Origin: Prochlorococcus sp. AG-315-B03
GTDB taxonomy: Bacteria; Cyanobacteriota; Cyanobacteriia; PCC-6307; Cyanobiaceae
Direction: 5' to 3'
Length of the DNA stretch: 35,836 nucleotides
Assembly (NCBI GenBank): GCA_003283745.1
Contig: QBWA01000009.1
Coordinates: 1-35,836 of the forward strand
Positions 1 to 35,836 of the stretch are shown here, in pieces. Numbering within the stretch: position 1 is the stretch's first letter; each line of letters starts with the position of its first letter. The position numbers were made by a program, and so were the translations under genes. Under the pieces are notes generated by a model. It did no database searches. It saw nothing but the letters and a program-made list of their open reading frames with translations, and was not told where the DNA came from.

Positions 1-117
1 AAGCTCAGATAGTTCTGGTAAAAGTCCATGTTTCCCGAGCATCTGATCCAAATCACGCAGCTCTTGGCGAATATAACGCAAATGTGAGCTAACTTCCTCT
101 CTCTTACTAGTAGACAT
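1..117 (-). CDS. Partial conserved-hypothetical protein running off the left edge (N-terminus MSTSKREEVSSHLRYIRQELRDLDQMLGKHGLLPELSEL...)
   Basis: Open reading frame on the minus strand starting at the CAT at 115-117; protein-like helical composition; no stop before the window edge. Confidence 0.6.
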   Translation of the reverse strand, partial: MSTSKREEVSSHLRYIRQELRDLDQMLGKHGLLPELSEL

Positions 118-379
118 TATAAAATTGAATAAATTGCTTGCCTTAGAAGTCTCAATATAGATTACTACACTAGGCAACTCAAAATCAAAAGTATTATCAA
201 TTGGGCATAACAAAAGGCGATATAAGTCTTTAGTCACATTTAAAGTATTAATGTCCTAATAGAATCAGAAGGCTTGTATTAAATTTATCGAAATAAACGA
301 TTTATAAGATCTGCTTTATTTTTGTAAAAAAAAATAAATTAAACTTTAGATATCTCAAAAATATAGCTAGAAATAAGAT

Positions 380-526
380 ATGAACATAAAAAAAAGCAAA
401 GACCTCAATATGAGGGTTGGGAATTTAATACTGGCAATATTTCTTGCAACTGTTCCCACAGCAATAACTTATGGGACTCTTAGTATGCATGGTCTGAATA
501 TTTGCAGAACTCTCAGCTACTTGTAA
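380..526 (+). CDS. 48-aa small membrane-like ORF (MNIKKSKDLNMRVGNLILAIFLATVPTAITYGTLSMHGLNICRTLSYL*) whose last codons and stop lie inside the duplicated purK segment
   Basis: Manual translation; one hydrophobic segment; the frame terminates at a TAA inside the repeat that starts at 515. Confidence 0.45.
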   Translation: MNIKKSKDLNMRVGNLILAIFLATVPTAITYGTLSMHGLNICRTLSYL

Positions 527-1626
527 CAGCAGGAAAAAAAAGAGCTGTTGATGTTGTCGTGCAAACCATTTCAAAGTCTGATCCTGCTGCAGTTGTAGCT
601 TCAGAAGTTGTTTTATCAGATCCCACAAATGTAGAAGGTACAAAATTGTTAGCTGAAAAGTGCAGGTCTATAACTTTTGAAAATGAATGGGTTGATATCG
701 CTAGTTTGATGACTCTTCAAAATCAAGGGGTATCATTTTTTCCTAAAATTGAATCCATAACTCCTTTGATAAATAAAATTTCGCAGAGAGAGTTATTAAA
801 CCATCTCGATATTCCATGTCCAGAATGGATGCCTATGCCAATAAATGAATCTTCAAGCTTTATTTTTCCTAAGGAATGGAGCTTTCCAGTAATGGCCAAA
901 GCTGCTAGTGGGGGTTATGACGGAAAAGGAACAAAAATCATACAAAACCTAAAACAATTAGAAGAATTGATCGCACTAAATAATGATGTAAAATGGTTTA
1001 TTGAGAAATGGGTTAGTTATGAGAAAGAATTGTCAATTGTCGCGACAAGAGATGTAAACGGTATTGTCCGTAGCTTTCCCATAGCAGAAACTTCTCAATC
1101 TAATCAAGTTTGTGATTGGGTTATTGCTCCTGCTCATATAAATCATAATGTCCAGTTAATGGCTAAGAATATTGCATCATCTTTGTTAGCTGAGTTGGAT
1201 TATGTTGGTGTTTTAGCTATCGAATTTTTCTATGGCAAGGATGGATTACTTGTAAATGAAATAGCACCTAGAACTCATAACTCAGGACATTTTTCCATAG
1301 AGGCTTGTAGTAGTAGTCAATTTGATCAACAAATATGTATCTCTTCAGGTATACCTGTTCCAATGCCTGAAATGACTGTACCTGGTGCGTTAATGGTTAA
1401 TTTACTTGGGTTACCAAGTAATTATCCTGTTTCTATAGATGGCCGATTAGAGGCATTGAAAATTATTCCTGGTATTAATGTTCATTGGTATGAAAAAAAA
1501 GAGGAGAAAACAGGGAGAAAACTTGGTCATGTTACATATTTATTAGAGAAGGATGATGCTATATCTCGAAAAGTTGAAGCAACTGAAGTTTTAAAAAAAA
1601 TAAGATCAATTTGGCCTAATTGTTAA
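515..1626 (+). pseudogene. purK: 5'-truncated purK copy lacking the start codon and the N-terminal GGGQLA motif region
   Basis: Same protein as 26533-27678 from LLVTAGKKR onward, but the first ~12 codons are replaced by unrelated sequence; only a TTG at 502 is available as a start. Confidence 0.85.
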
Positions 1627-1649
1627 TCAAATTAGTTTAGATTGAAGAA

Positions 1650-1827
1650 AGTACTGCCTTGTTGGTAATGGCCTTTCCAAGTGCTCTGATCTGACTCTCT
1701 TTCGACTTGGGGAGTCTGTCGTGAAAGTAACGTATACCGGCTAGTTCCGGAAACGAAGCTTCACTTTGAATCCCCCCTCTGGTTTTTCCAGGTCGATGCT
1801 TCTTGGGTCATACGGCATGGCGGTACT
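1650..1827 (+). ncRNA. ssrS: 6S-like RNA (cyanobacterial 6Sa type), left copy
   Basis: GC-rich non-coding block directly downstream of purK; terminal stem AGTACTGCC (1650-1658) pairs with GGCGGTACT (1819-1827); ~178 nt; the purK-6S linkage is known in cyanobacteria. Confidence 0.75.
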
Positions 1828-2120
1828 AACCCTTAAAATTATGTTATGAATTAGTTCGTTATTGGTTAATTGAATTTCCCAGGTATTTCTACAACCTTCT
1901 TTAGTAGAGTAGATTTTTAAAGAATTCTTATTTATATTTCTGGACCAAGTATTTTATAGACTTGGGCGTAGCAATGATTATTAATGCTTATGTTCTTTTG
2001 CAAGTTTGATTCCATTATGTGTTAAGTTCTTATTAAAGCTAACCTTACTAATATTCGATCAATAATATTTTGATGTATTGCTGAAATTATTTTATTTACT
2101 ATCAACTTACTAGTTGAATT

Positions 2121-4523
2121 TTAGGATGGCTTTGCTAGCGGCAATAAGCATTTGTCTGAGTCACAACCAGCAGGACCTGCTTCTGTTAATTCTCCTTGGT
2201 CATATCTACTAAGTGCTTCAAAGAAATCAGTACTTTCTCTTCTCCTAATTACTTCGGATTGTAGTTTTGAATAGGTATCGGAATTAATAGGTTCAAAAGG
2301 TAGCCTTGGGAATGTTGCATTTGCATCAAACCTTGCTAGTAAGGCAGCTGAAATATAGCCTTTATTTTCATCTATTGAGTCGTAGAGGGCTTTCGCCAAT
2401 TCTTCTATTTCATTTTCTCTGAATTCAATTGTTGCAGATGTGTTGTGATCTGTGTAATTAGACTGTACTTGCATGTAAAAGTCAAACTGGGCTAGTGCTT
2501 TGAAGTTATTTATATTAATTTCATCTGCTCCTGGAATATTTGCCCAGCTTACTTCTGTTGGTATCTCAACTAGCCATTCAGTACAGTTTGGATCAAAAGG
2601 ATTGTCTAATAGTTTGCCTTGCTCGTCTTTATCTGATTGAGAAGGAACAATTGTATACCCATAATCCATGCAGGCCATTGCTACAGGATCATTTTTTCTG
2701 AAAGTAATTCTCCTTATAAAACGTTGAGCTTTTGGAGGGTGCCAACCAGGAGATGCCCCTGTTAATAGACTTTTTGTTCCGGCAGGTTGGACAGTTGTGC
2801 AACGACTTGGACGGCGTATATTATGACGATCGCAATAATCCCATACAGTCTCGTTGACTATCTTTTTCCAGCGACTTAAAAATGTTGCTTCTTGGTTCTT
2901 AAAGCTTTTACCTTCCTCTGTTTCTGGTCTGCCCGCTTCCCACCACTTCAGCCAAGGAGTGCCAAAAGCATGAACAAAAAAGTCAAATAGACCTGTGAAA
3001 CTAACCCCTACTATCGGGTCCCATTCTCGGCTTTGTCTATAACGTTCTACCTCAAATCGATGATTTAGTAGACATGCTACTGATAATGCCGCTGATTTAA
3101 AGGCATCTTCTTGTAATTGATGGTCTAAAGGATCTATTTGATTAAGGTGAACTTCAGCTAGATTGCAATGAAAATCAGAACCCAGAATTTCACCACAGGG
3201 ATTAAGCCCATATCTACTTAGTCGGTGGTTGAGTTCTTTGTTTTCAAATGGTCCGTAATTATCATGGAGCCATCTGGCTGCTTCTTCTTTTCCTTGGACG
3301 CAATAGATATCTATAAATTCATTTCTTAGTTCTACAGTATTAAGAATGTCAGCATTAGATCGCGCAATCGCTTCAGGAGCAAATTGAATAGCCCCTTCTC
3401 CTGAATGGAATTGTTTTTTTACTGCATCAACTAAAACTTGAAGCGGGGGACGTGAGTGATAAACACGAGTATGATTGGCCATTCTTAGAGCATCTTTGTC
3501 AGGGTCTATGCTCCAATTACCTTCTGAGTCTTGTTTCCAAAGATTTTCCTTAGCCCCAGCAGCAGAAAGGTCTTCTGATGAGAATTGACGCATCCCTGCA
3601 CTTCTTCTTATGTTGCCAGCTACAATTGTTACAGCGGCTTCATCAATTAATAGACAACATTCTATTGATGTGAGTTTTCTACCAATAGATTTGTTTAAAA
3701 GCTTTGTTACACGAGGGTATAAATCTTTTAGCTTTACAGGATTAGCCATTCCTCCAAAACCTTTAAGTGACTCTCCAGCAGGTCTTACATCTTTTAAATC
3801 AATAGATACATTTATTTCTTTAGTGTTGAAATTTTCATCACTGCTCAATTCAAGTATCTTCTGGTAGCTGTCAACCCATCCACGTCTACTATCCCCAACT
3901 TTTATAAGTACATCATTGTCTTTGGTTGAAAATGTAGTCTTTTCACTTCTATCTTTGATAGGTGTTTTCCCTATTTCTGAGACGGAGACAATATTAATGG
4001 TATTAATAATAGTTGGTAGTTGGCTAATTAAGTGAGGCTCAATTATTGCTCCAGTACCACAACCCATCATGGCTAAATCCATCATGAGTCCGAAGGCTTC
4101 CCAGTCCAAAAGATTTGTTGATGTGCAATTGTATGCGCCTGAAAAATTCTTTTCTTTTTCGATCCACTCTGTCCCTCCTATCCAAAGCCAACGTCCAGAA
4201 GGTAAAGCCTTTTTCTCTTGTTGCATTCTCGCCATTAGATCTAGTTCTGATTTATTTAAATCTCCTAATTTTCCTAAGCCACCAAGATTTCTTTTGCTCA
4301 CTTCCTGCCAGCTCTCTCGACCACTAGGAACTTTTCTGCTGTAAGTTCTATAAAAAACAGGATTAGCAGCTGGAGCCGTGATAGGAAAATCAGCCTTTTG
4401 CTTCTTTGTACCCGAGGTTGAATTATTGGTTTCGGGCTGGCTAGTTGCAATTGTCAAGATCTTTGTACCCTTTGGTAAAAACAGGCTAACGCCACTAGTA
4501 GCGTTAGCAAGTTTTTTTAACAC
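2121..4523 (-). CDS. nrdJ: Adenosylcobalamin-dependent (class II) ribonucleoside-triphosphate reductase
   Basis: 800-aa ORF with NPCGEI, an N-terminal-half NCTSTN cysteine and a C-terminal C-x4-C (AGCDSDKCLLP) typical of monomeric class II RNR. Confidence 0.92.
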   Translation of the reverse strand: MLKKLANATSGVSLFLPKGTKILTIATSQPETNNSTSGTKKQKADFPITAPAANPVFYRTYSRKVPSGRESWQEVSKRNLGGLGKLGDLNKSELDLMARMQQEKKALPSGRWLWIGGTEWIEKEKNFSGAYNCTSTNLLDWEAFGLMMDLAMMGCGTGAIIEPHLISQLPTIINTINIVSVSEIGKTPIKDRSEKTTFSTKDNDVLIKVGDSRRGWVDSYQKILELSSDENFNTKEINVSIDLKDVRPAGESLKGFGGMANPVKLKDLYPRVTKLLNKSIGRKLTSIECCLLIDEAAVTIVAGNIRRSAGMRQFSSEDLSAAGAKENLWKQDSEGNWSIDPDKDALRMANHTRVYHSRPPLQVLVDAVKKQFHSGEGAIQFAPEAIARSNADILNTVELRNEFIDIYCVQGKEEAARWLHDNYGPFENKELNHRLSRYGLNPCGEILGSDFHCNLAEVHLNQIDPLDHQLQEDAFKSAALSVACLLNHRFEVERYRQSREWDPIVGVSFTGLFDFFVHAFGTPWLKWWEAGRPETEEGKSFKNQEATFLSRWKKIVNETVWDYCDRHNIRRPSRCTTVQPAGTKSLLTGASPGWHPPKAQRFIRRITFRKNDPVAMACMDYGYTIVPSQSDKDEQGKLLDNPFDPNCTEWLVEIPTEVSWANIPGADEININNFKALAQFDFYMQVQSNYTDHNTSATIEFRENEIEELAKALYDSIDENKGYISAALLARFDANATFPRLPFEPINSDTYSKLQSEVIRRRESTDFFEALSRYDQGELTEAGPAGCDSDKCLLPLAKPS

Positions 4524-4541
4524 CAGCTACAGGGCTATGAA

Positions 4542-5261
4542 GTGAATGTAACGAAAATCTCTTTTGCTATGAAACGAATTACTGAGCCTGAACTTATGGA
4601 AAGCCCAGCCCAGGTAAAGGCTTATGCCGAAGCTGACTTCTCTAAAAGTGACTCCATGGTGCTAATAGGTCTTGAAAAATTCCTGAAACAATCTGGTAAA
4701 ACTCTTGATGAAAGCAATTTAATTATTGATATAGCTTGTGGACCTGGGAATATTGCTGAGTTGTTAGCTCTTAATTGGCCTTCAGTGAGAGTAATTGGAA
4801 TTGATGGATCAAAGCAAATGTTGATCGAAGCTAAAAGAAACCTAAGGAAAAGTGATTCAAAGATATTTGGAAAACTTTCTTATGAAAATATTGATATAAA
4901 CTCAATTGCAAGTTCTGAAAAATCGCTTCCTTTCTTTGCTGATATAATTGTCAGTAATAGTGCTTTGCATCATTTGCATTCGCCTGAAAGCTTTTGGACG
5001 GCTTTGCAAAAACTCGGCGAGGAAAAATGTATCCATTTTCATAGAGATTTAAGAAGGCCTTGTTCAATAGATAAAGCTTATGAAATGCAAGAAAAGTATT
5101 TTATTAATGCACCGGAAATTTTGAAAAAGGACTTTTATGCATCTCTTAAGGCATCATTTACAGTAGAAGAAGTAAAACAGCAGCTTATTGATGCAGGATT
5201 ATCTCAATTAAAAGTATTTGAAGTTGATGAACTATATCTTGAGATTATTGGATATGTGTAA
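4542..5261 (+). CDS. SAM-dependent class I methyltransferase
   Basis: [17 protein letters not shown] motif I and following Rossmann-type pattern. Confidence 0.8.
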
Positions 5262-5299
5262 TCAATTCCTTTTTTACTCTTGAAAAATTTCTAACAATA

Positions 5300-6967
5300 A
5301 TGAAATCCACTTCTACAGAAATGAAAGATTTAAAGGTGAACCCAGAGGAGGAATTTGGAGAATCTCTAGTTGAAGCAGTAGGCAAAAGAAGAAATTTTGC
5401 AATTATTTCTCATCCTGATGCAGGTAAAACTACTTTAACTGAGAAGCTTTTGCTTTATGGAGGTGCTATCCAACAAGCAGGAGCAGTAAAAGCAAGGGGA
5501 CAGCAGAGAAAAGTTACCTCTGACTGGATGGAGTTGGAAAAACAAAGAGGGATTTCTATCACATCAACTGTTTTGCAGTTTGGCTATGGAGATAAGACTA
5601 TTAACTTATTAGATACTCCTGGTCACCAAGACTTTTCTGAAGATACCTATAGAACTCTTGCCGCTGCAGATAATGCAGTCATGCTTGAAGACGCGGCTAA
5701 AGGACTTGAACCTCAGACCAGGAAATTATTTGAGGTATGTCGAATGCGTCAGATACCAATTTTTACTTTTATAAATAAGATGGATAGGCCTGGTCAAGAA
5801 CCTCTTGATTTGCTTGATGAAATTGAGTCGGAGTTAGGTTTATCAACGTTTGCGGTTAATTGGCCGATTGGAAGTGGTGAGTTGTTTAGGGGAGTTATTG
5901 ACCGTGCTAATAAAGAAGTTGTTTTATTCTCTAGAGCTGAAAGGGGGAAGCAATCCAAGGAAATACGTTTAAAAATTAATGATCCTGAACTGAAAAACTT
6001 AGTTGAAGAAGAGTTGTTGCAAAAATCATTTGAAGAAATTGAGATTTTAGATGAGGCAGGTTCTGAATTAGATCTTTCTTTAGTTTTAGCAGGTGAATTA
6101 ACACCAGTTTTTTTTGGCTCAGCAATGACTAACTTCGGGGTACGTCCGTTCTTGGATAGTTTTCTTGAATTGTCCCAAGGCCCTGTTGCAAGAAATAGTT
6201 TTGATGGCCCAATTCTTCCTACAAGTGAATCTTTTAGTGGATTTGTATTCAAATTGCAAGCAAATATGGATCCCAAGCATAGAGATAGGGTTGCATTTGT
6301 TCGAGTTTGTAGTGGCAGATTTAAAAAGGATATGACAGTACAACATGCTAGAACTGGTAAGCAAATTAGATTATCAAGGCCTCAAAAGATTTTTGGTCAA
6401 GATAGAGCAGTAGTCGATGATGCTTACCCAGGGGATGTTATTGGCTTAAATAATCCAGGGATGTTTTCTATTGGAGATACATTATTTATTGGACGTCGAG
6501 TTGAGTTTGAAGGTATACCTTGCTTTAGTCCTGAGATTTTTAGTTGGTTAAGAAATCCAAATCCCTCTGCTTTTAAGAATTTTCGAAAAGGAGTTAATGA
6601 ATTAAGAGAAGAGGGTGCAGTTCAGATTCTTTATGATACTGATCAAAGTAAAAGAGACCCGATTCTGGCTGCAGTAGGACAGCTTCAACTTGAAGTGGTT
6701 CAACATCGTCTGGCTAATGAATATGGAGTTGAAACGAGGATAGAACCTATGGGTTATCAGGTCGCTAGATGGGTTAAAGGAGGTTGGCCTGCATTAGAAA
6801 AAACAGGGCGTATTTTTAACTGCAAGACTGTTCAGGATGCATGGCTTAGACCCGTACTCCTTTTTAAAAATGATTGGAACCTTAATCAGTTAACAGATGA
6901 TCATCCGGAAATTGAATTAAATACAGTTGCACCTGTTGTTAGCGGCGTTGATCCAATTACTCTTTAA
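5300..6967 (+). CDS. prfC: Peptide chain release factor 3
   Basis: GTPase motifs [29 protein letters not shown] and NKMDRPG characteristic of RF3. Confidence 0.95.
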
Positions 6968-7716: not shown

Positions 7717-8619
7717 TTATTGATTAATTAAAGAAATTAGTTCTTCTTTTTTAACTATATAAACTTCTTGACAGAAACTACAAACTAATTCAGCTTCACC
7801 TTTTTTATCTACAATATCTTCAATTTCGTTTTTCCCTAAGATAGTTAAAGCTGATAGGCTTCTTTCTCTTGAACATCTACATTTAAACTGTACATCCTGA
7901 GATGTACTAATAATTTCCGATGATGATTGATCAAGTTCAGGGAAGATTTCTTTAATTAAAGACAATAAATTATTTCTATTTTTATGCAGCAGCTCTCCAA
8001 AAGAGTTTATTTCCTTACATCTTTGTTCAAGTAGATTTATTAAAGAATGGTCCCTTTCTGCTTTAGGCAATATCTGTGCTATCAACCCACCACTACAAAG
8101 GATTCCATCTTGATTTATTCTTTCACCTACAAATACAACTGATGGAGTTTGTTCTGAATGTAAAAGATATGAAGCAACATCTTCACCTATCCCTCCATTA
8201 ATTAACTCAACTGTACTGCTATGAGGTTCTCCTTTCCCAATGTCACGAATTACATGAAGGTAACCAATACCTGTTGCTTTTTTAAAATCAAATGAATAAT
8301 TATTATTCTTGTCTTTAATGAAGTCCAATTCAAGACTTGGCTTCCCGACATATCCTCTGACAGTTCCATCTCTTCCAGCGTCAATAGTTAGACCTTTGAT
8401 AGGTCCATCTGATCTTAATCTTAGAGTAACTCTTCCATGATTAACTTTCATTGAGCTTGCAAGTAAAAGACCTGCACTCATAGCTCTTCCTATCATTACT
8501 GAAGTCAGATAGGAAAGTTTATGCCTTTTTTTAGCTTCCTTTGCCGCTTCTGTTGTGGAAACGGCTACTAATCTTATGCCTCCCTTTGCAGCAGTTGCTC
8601 TAATAAGTGAATCTGCCAT
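7717..8619 (-). CDS. hslO: Hsp33-type redox-regulated chaperone
   Basis: [25 protein letters not shown] start and a C-terminal CxC...CxxC zinc motif (KCRCSRER...[10 protein letters not shown]). Confidence 0.95.
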
Positions 8620-8624
8620 TAGAT

Positions 8625-9302
8625 TTAGCTGATTGATAAAAAATTATTTTGAGAGTGAAGTTGACCTCCTCTTAACTCATAGTTTTCAATATTAAGACTT
8701 TTAAAAAGTTCTGGTTCATGAGTGACTACTAAAATTTTTTGGTTTCTTCTCAGTCTTGAAAGTAATTTTATAACTTCATCTTTTACAGACCAATCCAGGC
8801 CAGCTGTTGGTTCATCTAATAAAAGTACTTTGGGTTTTCTAAGTAATTGAACGGCTATAGCAAGACGACGTTGTTGACCTCCGCTAAGTTGCTCTGGAGG
8901 TTGCTTGAAATCCAAACCATCTAGCCCCACTTCTTTCATTACTGATACTTGGTCTTTATTACTTAGTTTTTTATGACCTAGACGTAATTCTTGACCTACG
9001 GTTAATCCAAGGAAATATCTTTCTGGAAACTGAAAAACCAAACCGCATAACCAGCGTCGTTGCCTTGCACTTAGTTTTTTGTTTCTCCATTTTATTTCTC
9101 CTTTCTGATAGCCTGAAAGCCCACTAATAATCTCTACCAAAGTAGTCTTTCCACTTCCGCTTGAACCACTTATGATTACAATCCCTTTAGAGTTAGTCTC
9201 TAACGTTAGGTCTTCTAAGATGGGTCTCTCTGCTGTTGAGGGTTGATAGTAAATTCCTTTTAGACTTAGCATTTCTATTCTAGTGAACTTTATCCTATTC
9301 AA
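8625..9302 (-). CDS. ABC transporter ATP-binding protein
   Basis: Walker [11 protein letters not shown], signature LSGGQQRR, Walker [13 protein letters not shown]. Confidence 0.9.
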
Positions 9303-9383
9303 ATAAAGATTTTTCTATTACTAGATAAACTACTATAAATTATATCTAATCAGTCTTAGTTTACTTTTCAAGATCTCATCTTT

Positions 9384-9833
9384 ATGGAAGTTCGTTTTCG
9401 TGAGGTTAATCCTTTTAATTGTTGGATTTGGCTTAGATTTTCAGATATCCCTAGCAAAGGTGAAAAAAATTATATTGATGGTGTCTTTGATAGTTGGTAT
9501 GTAATAGGTCGTTTGGGAGGATTTAATTCTGAAAACATGCAATCTCATGAAATGGGATCTGATCTTAGTTGGATGGACTATGAGAATGAAGATTCCTCTT
9601 CAAATTTACCTTCTTTGATGCATAATCTTGGAGAGTTTGAATATCAGGGGTGTTGGGGGCGATGTTGGGTCGACTTAGGAACTGCTGATGCCATTGCTAT
9701 TGATGTGTTGATAAATTCTTTGAAGCAAGTGGATGTTGATGTTGTAAAACTAGAAGAATTATTAATTGGTGGAGTAAATGATGATTGGTCTGTTGAAGAA
9801 CACCCTGATGCAATTTTCCCCTCAATTGAGTGA
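9384..9833 (+). CDS. DUF3531-like conserved cyanobacterial protein
   Basis: 149-aa ORF with strong protein character; family assigned from sequence resemblance only. Confidence 0.7.
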   Translation: MEVRFREVNPFNCWIWLRFSDIPSKGEKNYIDGVFDSWYVIGRLGGFNSENMQSHEMGSDLSWMDYENEDSSSNLPSLMHNLGEFEYQGCWGRCWVDLGTADAIAIDVLINSLKQVDVDVVKLEELLIGGVNDDWSVEEHPDAIFPSIE

Positions 9834-9839
9834 TAATTT

Positions 9840-10613
9840 ATGAATGAGATGAGAAGATTATTAGTAGATCAGAACCGATTAAGAAATGAGATTGGTTTAG
9901 ATAGGATATTAGTTTTGAACTCTGAAGAATATCATTATTTGCATAGAGTAATGAGAATGAGATTGGGAGGTTTAATAACTATTATTGATGGTAAGGGTAA
10001 CCTATGGCATGCGAATATTGAAGAGAAAAGGAAAATCAGGTTAACAACTAGCTTTGTTAATCCACTTCAGAAAGAATTAAGAATAAAACCATTAATATGT
10101 TTAGCTGTTGCTATTCCAAAAAAGGGATTCGACGACATTCTGCAAATGAGTTGTGAAATGGGTGTTGATGTGATTCAACCATTAGTTTCTCAACGATCTG
10201 TAGTTAAAGATAACAATGTTGATAAGACTATTAGATGGAGAAAAATTATTTATGAAGCAGTTGAACAATCAGAAAGACTATGGTCTCCAGATTTAAGACC
10301 GATCACTAAAATGAATAAATGGTTAAATGAATTTACAGAAGGAGAACATATCGCTTTTGCTACGACGCGGATAGATGGATTGAAAGATTGTGTCCTCTGG
10401 TTAAATGAATTACCTTCAGATATTGATCAAGTATGGTTCTCAATTGGTCCGGAAGGGGGATGGACTAAAGAGGAGGAATCAATGGCTTTTGACTTAGGAG
10501 TTGAAGCTGTTCATATGGGAGAAACAATTTTAAGAACTTCAACTGCCGCAGTTGCGGCTTGTCAATTAATGATTTCATGGAGAAGGACACAATCCTTTTT
10601 TTTATGTGACTAA
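9840..10613 (+). CDS. rsmE: 16S rRNA (uracil1498-N3)-methyltransferase, RsmE family
   Basis: SPOUT-type motifs SIGPEGGWTKEE and GETILRTSTAAVAA. Confidence 0.92.
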   Translation: MNEMRRLLVDQNRLRNEIGLDRILVLNSEEYHYLHRVMRMRLGGLITIIDGKGNLWHANIEEKRKIRLTTSFVNPLQKELRIKPLICLAVAIPKKGFDDILQMSCEMGVDVIQPLVSQRSVVKDNNVDKTIRWRKIIYEAVEQSERLWSPDLRPITKMNKWLNEFTEGEHIAFATTRIDGLKDCVLWLNELPSDIDQVWFSIGPEGGWTKEEESMAFDLGVEAVHMGETILRTSTAAVAACQLMISWRRTQSFFLCD

Positions 10614-26532: not shown

Positions 26533-27678
26533 ATGATTGGGGTTGTTGGAGGCGGGCAGCTAGCAAAGCTACTTGTAACAGCAGGAAAAAAAAGAGCTGT
26601 TGATGTTGTCGTGCAAACCATTTCAAAGTCTGATCCTGCTGCAGTTGTAGCTTCAGAAGTTGTTTTATCAGATCCCACAAATGTAGAAGGTACAAAATTG
26701 TTAGCTGAAAAGTGCAGGTCTATAACTTTTGAAAATGAATGGGTTGATATCGCTAGTTTGATGACTCTTCAAAATCAAGGGGTATCATTTTTTCCTAAAA
26801 TTGAATCCATAACTCCTTTGATAAATAAAATTTCGCAGAGAGAGTTATTAAACCATCTCGATATTCCATGTCCAGAATGGATGCCTATGCCAATAAATGA
26901 ATCTTCAAGCTTTATTTTTCCTAAGGAATGGAGCTTTCCAGTAATGGCCAAAGCTGCTAGTGGGGGTTATGACGGAAAAGGAACAAAAATCATACAAAAC
27001 CTAAAACAATTAGAAGAATTGATCGCACTAAATAATGATGTAAAATGGTTTATTGAGAAATGGGTTAGTTATGAGAAAGAATTGTCAATTGTCGCGACAA
27101 GAGATGTAAACGGTATTGTCCGTAGCTTTCCCATAGCAGAAACTTCTCAATCTAATCAAGTTTGTGATTGGGTTATTGCTCCTGCTCATATAAATCATAA
27201 TGTCCAGTTAATGGCTAAGAATATTGCATCATCTTTGTTAGCTGAGTTGGATTATGTTGGTGTTTTAGCTATCGAATTTTTCTATGGCAAGGATGGATTA
27301 CTTGTAAATGAAATAGCACCTAGAACTCATAACTCAGGACATTTTTCCATAGAGGCTTGTAGTAGTAGTCAATTTGATCAACAAATATGTATCTCTTCAG
27401 GTATACCTGTTCCAATGCCTGAAATGACTGTACCTGGTGCGTTAATGGTTAATTTACTTGGGTTACCAAGTAATTATCCTGTTTCTATAGATGGCCGATT
27501 AGAGGCATTGAAAATTATTCCTGGTATTAATGTTCATTGGTATGAAAAAAAAGAGGAGAAAACAGGGAGAAAACTTGGTCATGTTACATATTTATTAGAG
27601 AAGGATGATGCTATATCTCGAAAAGTTGAAGCAACTGAAGTTTTAAAAAAAATAAGATCAATTTGGCCTAATTGTTAA
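26533..27678 (+). CDS. purK: Phosphoribosylaminoimidazole carboxylase ATPase subunit (intact copy)
   Basis: MIGVVGGGQLAKLL start, KAASGGYDGKGT and EIAPRTHNSGHFSIEA motifs. Confidence 0.96.
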   Translation: MIGVVGGGQLAKLLVTAGKKRAVDVVVQTISKSDPAAVVASEVVLSDPTNVEGTKLLAEKCRSITFENEWVDIASLMTLQNQGVSFFPKIESITPLINKISQRELLNHLDIPCPEWMPMPINESSSFIFPKEWSFPVMAKAASGGYDGKGTKIIQNLKQLEELIALNNDVKWFIEKWVSYEKELSIVATRDVNGIVRSFPIAETSQSNQVCDWVIAPAHINHNVQLMAKNIASSLLAELDYVGVLAIEFFYGKDGLLVNEIAPRTHNSGHFSIEACSSSQFDQQICISSGIPVPMPEMTVPGALMVNLLGLPSNYPVSIDGRLEALKIIPGINVHWYEKKEEKTGRKLGHVTYLLEKDDAISRKVEATEVLKKIRSIWPNC

Positions 27679-28072
27679 TCAAATTAGTTTAGATTGAAGA
27701 AAGTACTGCCTTGTTGGTAATGGCCTTTCCAAGTGCTCTGATCTGACTCTCTTTCGACTTGGGGAGTCTGTCGTGAAAGTAACGTATACCGGCTAGTTCC
27801 GGAAACGAAGCTTCACTTTGAATCCCCCCTCTGGTTTTTCCAGGTCGATGCTTCTTGGGTCATACGGCATGGCGGTACTAACCCTTAAAATTATGTTATG
27901 AATTAGTTCGTTATTGGTTAATTGAATTTCCCAGGTATTTCTACAACCTTCTTTAGTAGAGTAGATTTTTAAAGAATTCTTATTTATATTTCTGGACCAA
28001 GTATTTTATAGACTTGGGCGTAGCAATGATTATTAATGCTTATGTTCTTTTGCAAGTTTGATTCCATTATGT
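26567..28072 (+). repeat. Right copy of the ~1,506-bp direct repeat
   Basis: Matches 515-2020; diverges immediately outside both boundaries. Confidence 0.97.
27702..27879 (+). ncRNA. ssrS: 6S-like RNA (cyanobacterial 6Sa type), right copy
   Basis: Same sequence as 1650-1827, directly downstream of intact purK. Confidence 0.75.
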
Positions 28073-28180
28073 TTTCTTCTTTTATATTGTAAATTACAAG
28101 AAAATATAAACTCTTCTCCCGTCTTGATTAGAAAAATGATATGAGAAATATGCTTTACTAACTTTTAATATAAATAAAAA

Positions 28181-28384
28181 ATGAAACGCTTCTTCCTAAT
28201 CGCTTTAACTTCATGTCTTCTAATTCCTAGCAATGCTGATGAGAGAATATACGAAACAAAGAATATTTGTGCTCTTTACTATGCAACTGAAATCAATGGT
28301 ACTAAGGCGGCAACTTTACTTGGAATAAAAAACTCTGGAAGAGTTGGGTCAAGAGTGGAACAATATTGTAATTTCTTTCGATAA
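28181..28384 (+). CDS. 67-aa small predicted secreted protein
   Basis: MKRFFLIALTSCLLIPSNADE signal-like N-terminus followed by a short mature region with two Cys. Confidence 0.65.
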   Translation: MKRFFLIALTSCLLIPSNADERIYETKNICALYYATEINGTKAATLLGIKNSGRVGSRVEQYCNFFR

Positions 28385-28661
28385 ATAATGCATGAATTAC
28401 TTTTTAAAAATAATGAGATAAAAAATGAAATATAAAAGTCTGAATATCATTTTGAAAATTCTATATTAGTATTTTCTAGATTTAAAGTTGTGTTATCAAT
28501 AGTAAATTATTAATGATAGATGTTTTTTAATTTTCTCCTTATGATAATAATCTAATACCAATAACTATAGATTTTCTAAACGTTTTAGATAGATAAGAAC
28601 TTTTACTTATTACATTTAAAGACAAGTTGATTAAAATCAGTTCTAGATAATCCATGTCATA

Positions 28662-28769
28662 ATGGAACAAACTCATAACTATGCTATGAACCTCTTAGTC
28701 CCTTTGATGGGAATAGGTCCTCTTCTAGTTCTTTTTATATTAAAGGGTGATGAAAAATCTAGGAGATAA
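28662..28769 (+). CDS. 35-aa single-TM micro-protein (MEQTHNYAMNLLVPLMGIGPLLVLFILKGDEKSRR)
   Basis: Manual translation; one TM helix with a charged C-terminal tail; below the ORF-track cutoff. Confidence 0.5.
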   Translation: MEQTHNYAMNLLVPLMGIGPLLVLFILKGDEKSRR

Positions 28770-29166
28770 AAAAGATTGAATAGATCAAGAAATTGAGAAT
28801 TATTTTCAAGTGTTCAATTAGATCAAGTTAAAAGCTTTCTACTTCGTCTGTTTAATCATTATTCTTAATTAAAAAGAAATTGGGTTCATGTTATTCAAGC
28901 AATTATGGAATAGTATGTTTTATTAATTAATTTGATGAATAGATAAGCTAAGCAAAATATTTAAATTTAGACATAATCCAAATTTAAAAAGAAAAATAAA
29001 GAGTTTGTTAGTTAGAATTTTTTATGAAAATTAGAAGTTAATCTTTATATTTAAATTCCTTATTACAGTAATAAGTTTTTCTGTGTACGGGGATCCACTT
29101 TCATTATTATATTCATTGTATTGTGTTTTTTTATTAAAATATTATTATATTTATTTTTAATTCCCA

Positions 29167-29295
29167 ATGTTTGAGAATAAGACCCAACAGTTTTCAAGGT
29201 TTTATTTGAATGATAATAGGTCTAGATTTTTTGATTTTAAAGAAACAGAATTTCATGTTGAAGAAATTAAAGTTTCCACTCAAAAAGGGAAGTAA
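29167..29295 (+). CDS. 42-aa charged small ORF (MFENKTQQFSRFYLNDNRSRFFDFKETEFHVEEIKVSTQKGK)
   Basis: Manual translation; protein-like composition in an AT-rich region. Confidence 0.35.
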   Translation: MFENKTQQFSRFYLNDNRSRFFDFKETEFHVEEIKVSTQKGK

Positions 29296-29337
29296 ATCTT
29301 AGTAGATACCTTTTGTCGGAAATTTGTGGATTGCTTT

Positions 29338-29673
29338 TTAACAGAAATCTCTTAACTCTTTCCATTTGTTTAAACCATTTTCAAAATTGTCAAGTTCTCT
29401 TTTACTTGCACTCTTTAGTTCAAAGGCCTTTATGAGAGATTCGCTGGCCTCAACTCCAAGCTTTCCTGCTTTTTTTTGGTTGATGCATCCCATCCTTTTA
29501 TTACCTTCTTTTAAAGCGGATTCTGCTTTTTTTAAATATTTGGATGCTAAGGCGATTTTATTATTCCAATTAGATATGGAACTCTCAAATTCATTTATAT
29601 CTTCCGCAATGACTGGTCTTCCTTGAAAGAGTAATGTAATTACTATTAAAAATAAAACTAGTAATTTTTCCAA
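29338..29673 (-). CDS. 111-aa predicted secreted helical protein
   Basis: Signal-like N-terminus MEKLLVLFLIVITLLFQGRPVIAED, then an alpha-helical, charged mature part. Confidence 0.7.
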   Translation of the reverse strand: MEKLLVLFLIVITLLFQGRPVIAEDINEFESSISNWNNKIALASKYLKKAESALKEGNKRMGCINQKKAGKLGVEASESLIKAFELKSASKRELDNFENGLNKWKELRDFC

Positions 29674-29906
29674 TTTGAAATTTATAAAGTTATTTATTAC
29701 TCTAGATAGTTAGGCTAGAAAAAACTATTATTTTATACTCTCTATTGATGTTTACTGCTTTTTAGACTTCTGAGTTATTTGTTAAGTGGCATTTATACTT
29801 AGTGACTAATATTAATTTTTCCATCTCAAATCGATTAATAATCTTTAGGAATTTTTGATTGCATTAAAATTATGCTATTACTTGACTCAGTTTTCATTGG
29901 AGGGAA

Positions 29907-30086
29907 ATGATCAAGCCAATTCAAAGAAAAACTACTTTAAAATGGAGTTCAGATGGAGAGCTCTCTTCAGTTGATATGGCTAGAATATTAGACCTTTTAG
30001 CTGATAAAGAATTAACTCAATGTGCTTTAGCCTGTGACGCAAATAGAAAATCCTCAGAAATATTATTTCAGTTAGAAGACAGATAA
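29907..30086 (+). CDS. 59-aa small protein (MIKPIQRKTTLKWSSDGELSSVDMARILDLLADKELTQCALACDANRKSSEILFQLEDR)
   Basis: Manual translation with an upstream GGAGGG ribosome-binding-like sequence (about 29899-29904). Confidence 0.6.
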   Translation: MIKPIQRKTTLKWSSDGELSSVDMARILDLLADKELTQCALACDANRKSSEILFQLEDR

Positions 30087-30174
30087 TAAGTGGATTTACC
30101 TAAAGAAGTTTTGTTAATTTGTTATACATAATTAATTATCAAGATGTACATTTATAACCCATAGGGAAAAAAGG

Positions 30175-30318
30175 ATGAAAAATGCACAAGATAGATACTT
30201 TGAATGTTTGGAGGTTTGTATTGAAGATGAGCAAGGTATGACTTGTAGGCAGGTCTGTGCCCCAATTTTGAATGATGATCCTGCTGACCATCCTACGGTA
30301 CCTTTAATTAGTGAATAG
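30175..30318 (+). CDS. 47-aa twin-CX3C micro-protein (MKNAQDRYFECLEVCIEDEQGMTCRQVCAPILNDDPADHPTVPLISE)
   Basis: Manual translation; AGG-rich sequence immediately upstream; two CX3C motifs separated by 9 residues. Confidence 0.6.
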   Translation: MKNAQDRYFECLEVCIEDEQGMTCRQVCAPILNDDPADHPTVPLISE

Positions 30319-30594
30319 AAAATAAATAGAAGATATATTTTTTATCTATAAGTAGTTTTAATATTTTCTTTTTATTTTGTAGTTTATTAATATAAATAAT
30401 GAAATTACTATAATATAACTTCAATGATAAATTGTTTTATATACTTTATTCATGTATTATTTTCTATTAATTCTATAATCATTTTTTTGAAAACAATAAA
30501 AAAATGAAATAGATTTATTTCAATTGTTTGAATTCGGAGATACCAGTCTTACAAAAAAACAAATAACCTTATTTAGATGATATTAGTTATCTCT

Positions 30595-31032
30595 TCAATC
30601 ATTTTCATTAATTTCTAAACTTTTTTTTGTCAAGAATGAGTATGAGGCTTGGTGTTTCTCTTTCCATTCTTTATGTTCCTGGATTTGTTGCTTTAGTTTT
30701 TTTAGGCTTTCGATCTCATTAGGATATACTTTAGCTAAATACTCAGGGTTTAAATTTATATTCCCCTCATATTCATATACCATTTCTTCGAATGATTCGC
30801 AGATCCCAAGGATATCAGCCATAAAATCTTCAAATTCGTCAACATTTAATTTTTGTAGAGTCTGTCTTAATTTACTTTGACTGCTTTCTTCTGGTTCCCA
30901 TTCTTTTTTTAAAACGTGTAATAGATTGAGTTGTCCCATTTTATCTAAATAATCCCACTTCTCAGCATCATCGGCACTGTAAAAGTAGGAACCATCTCCT
31001 GATTGATAAAACTTAGCTCTTTCTTTATTCAT
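30595..31032 (-). CDS. 145-aa hypothetical protein, acidic/helical
   Basis: ORF with consistent protein composition (MNKERAKFYQSGDGSYFYSADDAEKWDYLD...). Confidence 0.7.
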   Translation of the reverse strand: MNKERAKFYQSGDGSYFYSADDAEKWDYLDKMGQLNLLHVLKKEWEPEESSQSKLRQTLQKLNVDEFEDFMADILGICESFEEMVYEYEGNINLNPEYLAKVYPNEIESLKKLKQQIQEHKEWKEKHQASYSFLTKKSLEINEND

Positions 31033-31319
31033 ATGAAATTAGGATTTTAAATATAAGAATTATGCTTGTCTATCTATAAATTAATAGACAAGAAGAGTTC
31101 ATTTTTTAAAAATGAACTTAGATATTTCCTTAGTGGTTTTCATGAATGTAAATTTATAAAATCCATATATGAGTCAATCATTTTTTGTTATTATTACTCG
31201 ATTTTTATATTGTTGCAAATTTTTATAGAATTCCTTAGTTATTCTAATCTGTATTAAGCAATTAATTTAAAGAACTAAATGTAATTATATATCGATCTAT
31301 TCTTAATATTTGAATTTTT

Positions 31320-31697
31320 TCAACTAAAGAAATCTAAAGGAAAGGGTCCAAGAGTGATTGCCATAACTGAGTCCTGATTCTTATGACAACTGATTATTAT
31401 TCCTTCGCCAAGCCCATACTCTATCCTTGCATGGATTTCACCACTATTTTGATTGGCCTTTAGGAAAATAGGTCCTTCCATTGATACTTCTGTTGAGACC
31501 TTTAATTTTTGCCATCTAAACCTTTTTTCCATTTCTCTAATTACATTAAGGCCATTTTTAAAGGACGGTGCCATTATCCCAACAGTGAACCAGTCTGCAT
31601 TTTTCATTATAACTTTTAATTCTTTTCGTATTATTTTAGAATCTATTTCATTTAGAATTGGCGCAGTTCTTAAACTATTAAGATCATCAATTTTCAT
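31320..31697 (-). CDS. DUF1824-like protein
   Basis: ADWFTVGIMAPSF... and C-terminal GEGIIISCHKN...TLGPFPLDFF resemble DUF1824 of cyanobacteria. Confidence 0.65.
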   Translation of the reverse strand: MKIDDLNSLRTAPILNEIDSKIIRKELKVIMKNADWFTVGIMAPSFKNGLNVIREMEKRFRWQKLKVSTEVSMEGPIFLKANQNSGEIHARIEYGLGEGIIISCHKNQDSVMAITLGPFPLDFFS

Positions 31698-31850
31698 TAT
31701 GAATTTTTAAAATATTTATAAGATATCAGAGCTTTTATATTTAGCTCTTTTTTCTGTAATTTAAATTGTTTTTAATCTTATTGATTTTTTACCATCTCTA
31801 TTTAATAATTATTGAACTATTTATGTTCTTTAATCAGTTTAAATGGCTTT

Positions 31851-32042
31851 TTACTTAATTGTATTAGATTCTTTAATTCTTCTAGATTCGTGCACTTTCT
31901 CTAATTCAGTATAAATTTCACGTAATTTTTTCTGAATATGCTCAAGATTTTCGACTGCACCAAGAGAGTTCATAGCTCGTATGAGACTTTCTTTTGCTTC
32001 TATTAACCCTCTACATTGAGGGCTTCCAGCTTCAGAAGACAT
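31851..32042 (-). CDS. 63-aa small helical hypothetical protein
   Basis: MSSEAGSPQCRGLIEAKESLIRAMNSLGAVENLEHIQKKLREIYTELEKVHESRR, coiled/helical composition. Confidence 0.55.
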   Translation of the reverse strand: MSSEAGSPQCRGLIEAKESLIRAMNSLGAVENLEHIQKKLREIYTELEKVHESRRIKESNTIK

Positions 32043-32248
32043 CTTAGAAATAGTTTTTATATTTTTATACTATACCTATTTTTTCTTTATTCCTGCACCT
32101 TGGGTTATTGAGTCTATAAGGTCTCATCCGTTACTCCTTAGTGCTCTTATGATGAAATAATTTCTTTATCATTGCTTTATTTTTTAGTCTTGACGAGATC
32201 ATCTTTTTTCATTAGAAACAAAATTATAATATTTTTTTTCACTCAAAA

Positions 32249-32509
32249 ATGAAAAGTCTTGATATTTCAGGAGGTTGGCTAGTTGATCCTAATAATAAAT
32301 GGGCCATACATTTTGATTCTAAGGATAATGCAAGTAAAGAAACAGACTCTGAATTCTCTATTGATATGTGGGGTCTTGATTCAGACGGTAATCCACTTAA
32401 ATTTAAAAGTAGAAGAAAAGCTTCAAAAAATGATTCTCTAAAAACTTGGAATCAATTGGTTTCTTCGGATTGGTCGATGGCTAATTTTAAGAAACTTAAA
32501 AGTGCCTGA
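32249..32509 (+). CDS. 86-aa DUF1651-like protein
   Basis: GGWLVDPNNKWAIHFDSKDN pattern resembling DUF1651 of marine picocyanobacteria. Confidence 0.55.
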   Translation: MKSLDISGGWLVDPNNKWAIHFDSKDNASKETDSEFSIDMWGLDSDGNPLKFKSRRKASKNDSLKTWNQLVSSDWSMANFKKLKSA

Positions 32510-32637
32510 GTAATACTTTTTGTATAACTAATAGATTATTTAACCTTATTTTCAAATAATAATTTAATAATCTCTTATTGCCGTTTGCTTTTTATTGTGT
32601 GAATATATATATGAATTTTTAAAATAGATTTAATACA

Positions 32638-32853
32638 TTGTCCAGAATTATTAACTTCATTATTATTTTTTCAGCAGTTATCAGTAGTTGGACAATGATA
32701 GTGCTGATTTCAAATACTTCGTTGGAATTGGAAATAAATGAGGTAATACGAAAGATGTATTTAAACCAAAAAGGCTTTTTGTCTAATGTTAAGGATTTAT
32801 CTTCCTTATTAGTTGAAGATGCCAATATTAGGTTATTTAGTCATGAAAAGTAA
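32638..32853 (+). CDS. 71-aa single-TM small protein (TTG start)
   Basis: N-terminal TM, then EVIRKMYLNQKGFLSNVKDLSSLLVEDANIRLF. Confidence 0.55.
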   Translation: MSRIINFIIIFSAVISSWTMIVLISNTSLELEINEVIRKMYLNQKGFLSNVKDLSSLLVEDANIRLFSHEK

Positions 32854-33064
32854 CCTTTATTTTAAAACTATATTACATTATATTTTTTAGCTTCTAGAAC
32901 CAAATTTTATAATATCTAGAAATAGTTACTAATATAATTTTTATTCTAACTATTGTTCATCTAAGTTATTTTATATTTATTCTTTAATATTTTTATAGCT
33001 CTAACCACTCTAGTATATTAATATGCTTCAATCTTTTATAATTAATAACTTTATAACATAGGCT

Positions 33065-33092
33065 ATCTAATTATCTAATTATCTAATTATCT
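33065..33092 (+). repeat. Short tandem repeat, unit ATCTAATT x 3.5
   Basis: Read directly: ATCTAATT ATCTAATT ATCTAATT ATCT, ending ~10 nt before the ATG at 33103. Confidence 0.95.
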
Positions 33093-33102
33093 TTTAATTT
33101 CA

Positions 33103-33939
33103 ATGAATTCCTTATTTAAAATTTATGATTTGAGATTCGAGATTTCATTTAATACGTTTGATCAATTACGGCAAAAACTCTATTTTTACATAAATAATAA
33201 TATAAAAAAAATCAATATTCCATGTAAAGCAAATATAAATAATAAGTTTTTATTGGACTCAATTCAGATTTGCAGGAGTGAGTTCCCAAGCATTAATCTA
33301 ATACCTCATTTTAGTATCCAGTATGAGTTTAATTCAACTAAAGATCGTACAATTAATAAGCTAATTAATTTTATAAAATTATCCATTAGATTAGAATGTG
33401 AGGATATATTACTTGTATCAGGTTCAGCAAGGAAGTTGTCACTTGATAGTGTAACAGCAATAAATTATCTAAAGGATAATATTATTAAAGGGATCGAACC
33501 TATCGGAGTTGCCTTTAATCCTTACTTGCCAGATTTGTTGTTTCTAGAAGAATTAAGAAGATTAAAATTAAAACTATATTCGGGTTTAGTTCATTCAATA
33601 TGGATTCAGTTCGGTACAAACTATATAGAATTAAGCAAAAATATTTTAGTTTTAAACACTATCTTAAATTTCTACTATAAAGCCAATCCCAGAAGTCCTA
33701 AAATAATTTTATATGCGAGTATTTTAGTTCCTTCTAAGTTGTTTAATGCTCGGTTTAAATTTAGACCATGGAAGGGTGTTTATTGTTCTGAAAAATTCTT
33801 GAGTTCTCTTGATTATGCGAATGATGTCATTGGAAAAATGTTATGTATCTATAAAAAAAATGGAATTATACCTATTATTGAAACAGACACTTCTAGTGAA
33901 AAAAAAATTATAGCTTTAAAAAATTATATTGAGTTTTAG
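33103..33939 (+). CDS. Divergent methylenetetrahydrofolate-reductase-like TIM-barrel protein
   Basis: LRFEISFNTFDQL (cf. SFEFFPP), LIPHFSIQYEFNSTKDRTIN...CEDILLVSGSARK, IGVAFNPYLP in the order seen in MetF-type proteins. Confidence 0.55.
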   Translation: MNSLFKIYDLRFEISFNTFDQLRQKLYFYINNNIKKINIPCKANINNKFLLDSIQICRSEFPSINLIPHFSIQYEFNSTKDRTINKLINFIKLSIRLECEDILLVSGSARKLSLDSVTAINYLKDNIIKGIEPIGVAFNPYLPDLLFLEELRRLKLKLYSGLVHSIWIQFGTNYIELSKNILVLNTILNFYYKANPRSPKIILYASILVPSKLFNARFKFRPWKGVYCSEKFLSSLDYANDVIGKMLCIYKKNGIIPIIETDTSSEKKIIALKNYIEF

Positions 33940-33983
33940 TATATAAATTCCTTTTTAAAAATCCCTTTATTCCTGAATTAAAC

Positions 33984-34166
33984 TTATAAGGCTTCTTCTC
34001 GCTCCTCATCTATATACTCCCATACACCTTGTATTATGTTAGATGCATTTAGATTAAGATTATCTTCATATTTTCTATGATGCTTTATTTGTATTATTTC
34101 ACTATTATTTTCTGAATGATTTAGTTCTAAAACCATTATTCTAAATAGATTTTCTTTAATATGCAC
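33984..34166 (-). CDS. 60-aa hypothetical small protein
   Basis: ORF with charged composition (MHIKENLFRIMVLELNHSENNSEIIQIKHHRKYEDNLNLNAS...). Confidence 0.4.
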   Translation of the reverse strand: MHIKENLFRIMVLELNHSENNSEIIQIKHHRKYEDNLNLNASNIIQGVWEYIDEEREEAL

Positions 34167-34467
34167 TAAAGAAATTTTTTTGCAAGAGTAATTTCAATTA
34201 AATAAATATTAGATTTGTATTTTTGAACACGTGTGTTACATTTAGATTAACCTTTTTTGTATTCTGCGTAGGATTAATTACTTGAAGTGTTTTTTCTATT
34301 ACATGTAGGCATGGCTTGAAAGGATTCATTTCCATTGCGATTATATGAATTAGTGATGTTGACTGATAAATTTTTTTTGTTAGGGGGAAGAGTCATCTAT
34401 GTTTCATGAAAACTTACTAATTCATTAAATCATCAATTCCTGTAACAAATTATTTAATTGACTCGTA

Positions 34468-34683
34468 TCAGAATATGACATATTTGTTACTTTGTGTGAA
34501 GCCTTTCTCGATTGGTCCAAATGCCGCATGATTTCTCAGCATCTCCAATCTCTTGTTAGGACTCCTCTTCCCATTTAATTGAATGCTCTTCTAGCAACTA
34601 ACCTTATTCCCGTCCTGCATCCATGTGTCACACTTTTCTTTTTCATTTAAGATATGTTCCGCATCTTCGTCTGCTTTGTTGCG
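34468..34683 (-). pseudogene. Possible relic of a small protein gene with an in-frame TAG and no start codon
   Basis: GC-richer patch; reads RNKADEDAEHILNEKEKCDTWMQDGNKVSC*KSIQLNGKRSPNKRLEMLRNHAAFGPIEKGFTQSNKYVIF*. Confidence 0.35.
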
Positions 34684-35041
34684 TTAATTATCAACTATTT
34701 TAATTTAGAATTTTTTTTACTTTAAATTAATTATAGCGTTAATTCTGGAATCCCTTGATAATTATTTTTCTATCATATTCTTTTCAGTTATTATTACTAC
34801 TATAATTTAGAGATAATACCCTTTATATATTTTCCAATTAAAGATAGTTATTTCGATGCCCCCTTTATTTTGTACACTTGGTCTTAATTTGATTTCTTTT
34901 TAATTCACTAAGTAGTAATTTATTCAGTGCTTAATCATCTGCTACAATTAATACACTTTAAATCTCATATAGATATAATTTTTCATTAACAGTTAACCAT
35001 TACTTGATTTAACTTATAGAATTAATTATTGCTTTATTAAC

Positions 35042-35377
35042 ATGCCTAATTCTTGGGATGATTATTACAGTCATTACTCTGACTGGGATGAGGCTCATTC
35101 CTTTAATGTTAGGATTCAGCTTCGATTTGAGGAAAATTTAAAATTTCTAGGATATAGTGAATTATTAGAACATGATTTTTTACTATCTTTAGAAGATAGT
35201 TTTATTGATAAAGCTCTTCCACAAAATAGAACCTATATTAAGAATGAAGACGAGATTGTTTTATCTTTTGAGGTTCCATTCGATTGGTCGATTGATTCTG
35301 ATTGGGAAGATAGAGCTTTAGTTCTTTTAGGCATAAAAGAAGAGTGGGTTATTGATTCTTCGGTAGAGGATAATTAG
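35042..35377 (+). CDS. 111-aa acidic hypothetical protein
   Basis: MPNSWDDYYSHYSDWDEAHSFNVRIQLRFEENLKFLGY..., consistent protein composition. Confidence 0.65.
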   Translation: MPNSWDDYYSHYSDWDEAHSFNVRIQLRFEENLKFLGYSELLEHDFLLSLEDSFIDKALPQNRTYIKNEDEIVLSFEVPFDWSIDSDWEDRALVLLGIKEEWVIDSSVEDN

Positions 35378-35453
35378 AAGAAGGTATTTTAATTAGTACG
35401 ATAATTTCCAATTAAAAAAAATATTTTTCTAAATCTAGAGTTGATTTTTCTTA

Positions 35454-35720
35454 CTAAGAATAAAAAAGTAGAGCTAAGCCTCTATCAGTTTGATGGAATT
35501 CTTTTTCTTCTCTGCTTAAGTCAATTGCTAATTCCTCACCTTCTTTTATTGCTTGTTCATATGGTGGCTTAGTTGTCTCGATACCTTTGTAGACTGCTGC
35601 TATGCCAATGGGAGTGGCATTCCATGCGAAATTCTCAGTTTCGCACATGGGAGGTTGTCTTAAGGCTTCCTCTAGAAGGTTTGTTAGGCTTCCTTTTTTC
35701 TCAGTTGTACTAGCAGACAT
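35454..35720 (-). CDS. 88-aa hypothetical protein
   Basis: MSASTTEKKGSLTNLLEEALRQPPMCETENFAWNATPIGIAAVYKG..., consistent protein composition. Confidence 0.65.
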   Translation of the reverse strand: MSASTTEKKGSLTNLLEEALRQPPMCETENFAWNATPIGIAAVYKGIETTKPPYEQAIKEGEELAIDLSREEKEFHQTDRGLALLFYS

Positions 35721-35836
35721 TTTTAAATAATAATGAGGATATTGAAAAAAGAGTTTTAGTTCTGTTTAAAATATTTACTACCTTCTAATTCATAATTTTA
35801 TTATTTGTGGCATTTTTGTTGATCTCTGCATCCTTT

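Follow-up and report, generated by a model that had tools for sequence, protein, structure and literature searches.

A second, identical 6S RNA sequence in a Prochlorococcus draft genome is probably an amplification and assembly artifact

Probably a single 6S RNA gene written twice

The stretch of DNA analyzed here (the window, 35,836 bases) is the entire contig C9 of a Prochlorococcus assembly of 957,139 bases in 61 contigs that is 56.2% complete. It very probably contains one ordinary 6S RNA gene, the right-hand copy downstream of purK, and the identical left-hand copy is best explained, on the grounds of junction structure and synteny, as an artifact of amplification and assembly. This reading is favored because the first 514 bases are displaced and inverted, a second contig fills most of the interval that separates them from their native place, and the join beyond them cuts a conserved gene mid-way; because relatives have no second purK–6S unit near nrdJ, all 36 other congeners with 6S RNA have a single copy, and the two copies are 100% identical; and because the draft is only 56% complete, lies in 61 contigs, and has joins that resemble MDA chimeras. 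The cell thus presumably carries one 6S RNA gene. An earlier note on this DNA had proposed that a doubled dosage of 6S RNA could matter. This proposal is not supported, since the extra copy has abnormal joins on both sides, one inverted and one a back-jump, close to the end of a contig in an incomplete draft, and every other congener with 6S RNA has one copy. The same note had itself named an assembly error as a finding that would refute it, and the junctions and synteny largely point that way.

Identity of the RNA and extent of the repeat

It is established for the family that 6S RNAs act as mimics of an open promoter and are bound by the housekeeping RNA polymerase holoenzyme; family members also template product RNAs. 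The RNA in the window is the known picocyanobacterial 6S RNA (Yfr7/SsaA), real and ordinary. Two full-length matches to RF00013 were obtained with cmscan (Rfam 15), at 1648–1830 and 27700–27882, both on the forward strand; each covers model positions 1–187 of 187 and scores 90.5 bits (E 6.7e-17) against a gathering score of 46.4. The earlier note had placed the left copy at 1650–1827, with a partner in the repeat, and was right within 3 nt. Its identification of a purK-linked cyanobacterial 6S RNA is borne out by the covariance model that it had suggested running, by the location directly downstream of purK that is usual in cyanobacteria, and by covariation: an alignment of 21 relatives has compensatory changes at 12 of 55 consensus pairs. 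The fold, at z = -3.7 versus shuffles, closes the terminal stem, and together with the repeat coordinates it confirms that the RNA, with this stem, lies inside both repeat copies. In Prochlorococcus, Yfr7 sits downstream of purK and is a probable orthologue of SsaA/6Sa and of 6S RNA from gamma-proteobacteria (PMC1242208). The RNA here shares with cyanobacterial 6S RNA (Yfr7/SsaA/6Sa; RF00013) its location, covariance model, closing stem, and interrupted rod, and at about 183 nt it is within the 175–185 nt found for Prochlorococcus 6S RNA by Northern. Nothing in the RNA itself sets it apart; the only difference is the apparent second copy.

Both 6S sequences are contained in an exact direct repeat of 1506 bp on the forward strand (515–2020 and 26567–28072; start-to-start offset 26,052). 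The two copies show zero divergence over this length, and a chance origin of such a repeat is impossible. The left copy consists of a 5′-truncated purK, 6S, and the 190 nt that follow, and the right copy has the same content in native context. The intact purK (26533–27678, forward strand) encodes 381 aa with Pfam ATP-grasp and PurK_C domains. On the left, the frame at 502–1626 encodes 374 aa, with MQNSQ in place of the first residues MIGVVGGGQLAK of the intact protein; purK is broken there, as the earlier note had it. A scan for promoters and terminators around the left 6S copy gave nothing above chance.

The 6S-1 and 6S-2 RNAs of Bacillus and the 6S RNAs of the B. cereus group are encoded by distinct genes with their own sequences. 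Both are published cases of species with two 6S RNA genes, arranged in tandem in the B. cereus group (PMC7726162). The window resembles them in having two 6S sequences in one genome, but here the copies are identical and one of them lies between abnormal joins.

Genomic context of the two copies

6S RNA is present in 37 of 41 congeneric genomes, this one counted, and occurs exactly once in each of the 36 others. The right copy has purK upstream and conserved blocks downstream as in relatives: its flank (28073–35836) matches block by block what comes after 6S in those genomes, which makes the right copy the native one. The flank itself is a run of small, mostly hypothetical genes whose order is conserved in relatives; three of these genes (30595–31032, 33103–33939, and 35042–35377) were tested against Pfam and PADLOC and matched neither.

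The flanks of the left copy, in contrast, are not colinear with relatives. In a genuine duplication, both flanks should fit one chromosome in an arrangement common to relatives or sister cells; the left flank is inverted and out of place. In all eight relative loci that reach far enough (L036, L038, L040, L042, L044, L049, L153, and L160), the counterpart of bases 1–514 (reverse strand) is found on the opposite strand, about 13 kb downstream of 6S. Contig C49 of the same assembly (3,223 bases) covers most of what lies between the counterparts of the window's right end and of 514..1. The first 514 bases therefore belong a few kb past the last base of the contig, reversed. They hold the truncated start (380–514) of a conserved small gene, which continues in relatives; the small ORF at 380–526 starts as its first ~43 codons and switches to purK mid-gene. 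What the earlier note had taken for a foreign small ORF is thus the N-terminal part of a conserved gene that is normally found on the other strand about 13 kb downstream.

On its other side, the left copy adjoins nrdJ (2121–4523, reverse strand; Pfam RNR-II_ins_dom), which encodes a B12-dependent ribonucleotide reductase. In same-genus relatives, the 3′ end of nrdJ lies about 25 kb upstream of purK–6S in the same order and orientation, and a search of these relatives for a second purK–6S unit beside nrdJ found nothing similar. Candidates for the native left neighbor of nrdJ, on the end of contig C2 and on C42, gave only matches of ~430 bp and ~100 bp that are not clearly colinear, and they were not used as evidence.

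The joins on either side of the left copy

The left copy is bounded by two joins. The first, J1 (514..515), is inverted and links the reversed downstream stretch to purK, about 13 kb apart, cutting the conserved small gene in its middle; where the window has AGC followed by purK, relatives read on as AGCAGTAAAG or similar, and the microhomology is about 3 nt (AGC). The second, J2 (2020..2021), is a direct back-jump of 26,052 bp: sequence 190 nt past 6S is joined, upstream, to the 3′ flank of nrdJ, and about 5 nt (ATTAT) are common to both sides. Both microhomologies were read from relatives, as the native sides of the joins are absent from this assembly.

A real tandem duplication (or circle) of 2021–28072 (26,052 bp) would be expected to have just such a joint as J2, direct and with short microhomology. 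The cell would then have two purK–6S units together with nrdJ to aroB, J1 alone would be an amplification artifact in the upstream unit, and 6S RNA dosage would be doubled in a streamlined Prochlorococcus. This explanation is improbable: it requires J1 as a further artifact or rearrangement only 1.5 kb away, and a second 6S RNA occurs in no congener, and the draft genome is incomplete. A real rearrangement of the chromosome, with a 1.5-kb purK–6S segment copied beside nrdJ and an inversion of the region downstream of 6S, has in its favor that the contig as written reads so. It is still harder to credit than the tandem duplication, given that it needs two linked events, that a conserved gene is broken at J1, and that the region leading from the right end of the window to 514..1 is partly present on C49 in native order.

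Comparison with MDA chimeras and single-cell assemblies

When a single E. coli cell was amplified by phi29 MDA, inverted joins made up 85% of the chimeras, usually between sites <10 kb apart, and direct joins mostly linked sites >10 kb apart, with segment order reversed about half the time. Complementarity of at least 2 nt was found in 76.8% of chimeras, but in only about one-third of joins >10 kb (Lasken and Stockwell, 2007; PMC1855051). J1 and J2 likewise join genomic segments that are not neighbors, J1 as an inverted join over ~13 kb with an intervening deletion and J2 as a direct join in reversed order over 26 kb, and, judged from relatives, both appear to have short complementarity. J1 differs from most published inversions in spanning ~13 kb rather than <10 kb.

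The published pipeline for Prochlorococcus single cells uses MDA or WGA-X and SPAdes --sc, keeps contigs above 2,000 bases, and, when benchmarked on cultures, made 1.5 misassemblies per 100 kb (PMC6122165), a rate at which the order of 14 would be expected for an assembly of this size. The smallest contigs encountered here, which are the last-numbered, have 2,070 and 2,008 bases and fit a cut-off of at least 2 kb, and the majority of the named relatives are single-cell genomes. We infer that this assembly is also a single-cell genome of this kind and that its source DNA was probably phi29-amplified.

Under the artifact reading, a strand copied from about 13 kb downstream of 6S would have been displaced and re-primed, inverted, inside purK (J1). 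The chimeric strand would then have run 1.5 kb through purK–6S before joining, 26 kb upstream, the 3′ flank of nrdJ (J2), and the assembler may have written the resulting loop, probably a simple one in its graph, as two copies. The single 6S RNA gene would work as 6S RNA does elsewhere. Several points count against the artifact reading: it needs two joins within 1.5 kb, J1 spans more than the usual distance of MDA inversions, and microhomology is found in only about one-third of MDA joins >10 kb. The absence of further exact duplications also counts against it, the 1506-bp repeat being the sole one among the window and 24 contigs or contig ends. As a caution, exact kb-scale duplications near contig ends of amplified single-cell assemblies need to be checked for inverted or back-jump joins before claims on dosage or regulation are made.

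The 6S 3′ end as a putative attachment site in relatives

In one closed congeneric genome (G002), ~7.4 kb of inserted sequence follow 6S, with the complete 6S on one side and a second 6S 3′ end on the other. At this locus (L034; G002:C1:120500-138000), 6S lies at 2429–2609 (forward strand) and the 3′-end copy, 67 nt at 83.6%, at 9819–9885 (forward strand), adjoining a gene for a 422-aa tyrosine recombinase (8481–9749, reverse strand; Phage_integrase 1.1e-07). In a census of 300 genomes drawn from the family, homologues of this integrase (E <= 1e-20) were found in 13. In 10 of the 13, the integrase is encoded 2.4–39 kb downstream of 6S and invariably on the other strand (besides L034, loci L165, L167, L168, L170, L171, L173, L174, L175, and L176). 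In nine of these ten loci, the 6S 3′ end of the respective genome recurs as a copy ~60–200 nt upstream of the integrase start, and the tenth (G162) ends 45 bases beyond that start. For instance, the fragment in G256 reproduces the unusual 6S 3′ end of that very genome. The matches in G256 and G076 cover the integrase N-terminus only, so these elements look decayed. In G196, which is 64% complete, a 6S fragment lies beside the integrase, but a 6S gene was not found. Exceptions to the linkage with 6S are G154 (530 kb away), G218 (located on another contig and lacking a fragment), and the second homologue of G206. The core shared between the 6S 3′-end copies, a putative recombination region, is about 45 nt, and no tRNA genes were found near these integrases.

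These sequences suggest that, in picocyanobacteria, a family of tyrosine recombinases has repeatedly used the 3′ end of the 6S RNA gene as its attachment site. Such a site raises the question of whether a mobile element using the 6S gene caused the duplication in the window. Integration, however, duplicates only ~45–80 nt of the 6S 3′ end, whereas the repeat here spans 1506 bp and includes purK; the right 6S is followed by a short, insert-free flank (~780 bp to the syntenic marker), and an integrase of the 6S-site family is absent from this assembly. Given the repeat boundaries and the missing integrase, this explanation was rejected, and its probability is negligible.

A secondary source (PMC10872708) gives seven tRNA genes as those used by the tycheposons of Prochlorococcus. 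A search of the open-access literature found no description of integration at the 6S gene, which is not proof of novelty. The 6S 3′-end lead seems more valuable than the duplication itself and merits separate study.

A PADLOC scan of the island genes gave no match. At L152 (G043:C1:121500-136000, 1836–6721), ~3.8 kb of extra sequence with small hypothetical genes lies between 6S and the syntenic marker; a clear second 6S 3′ end was sought there and not found. At L151 in a second congener (G048:C1:94000-104000, 1600–4257), an insert of ~2.7 kb after 6S has a 43-nt 6S 3′-end copy at its far end and carries a gene for a 773-aa TPR/glycosyltransferase-like protein without the integrase; this insert is likely a cargo-only or decayed element at the 6S site.
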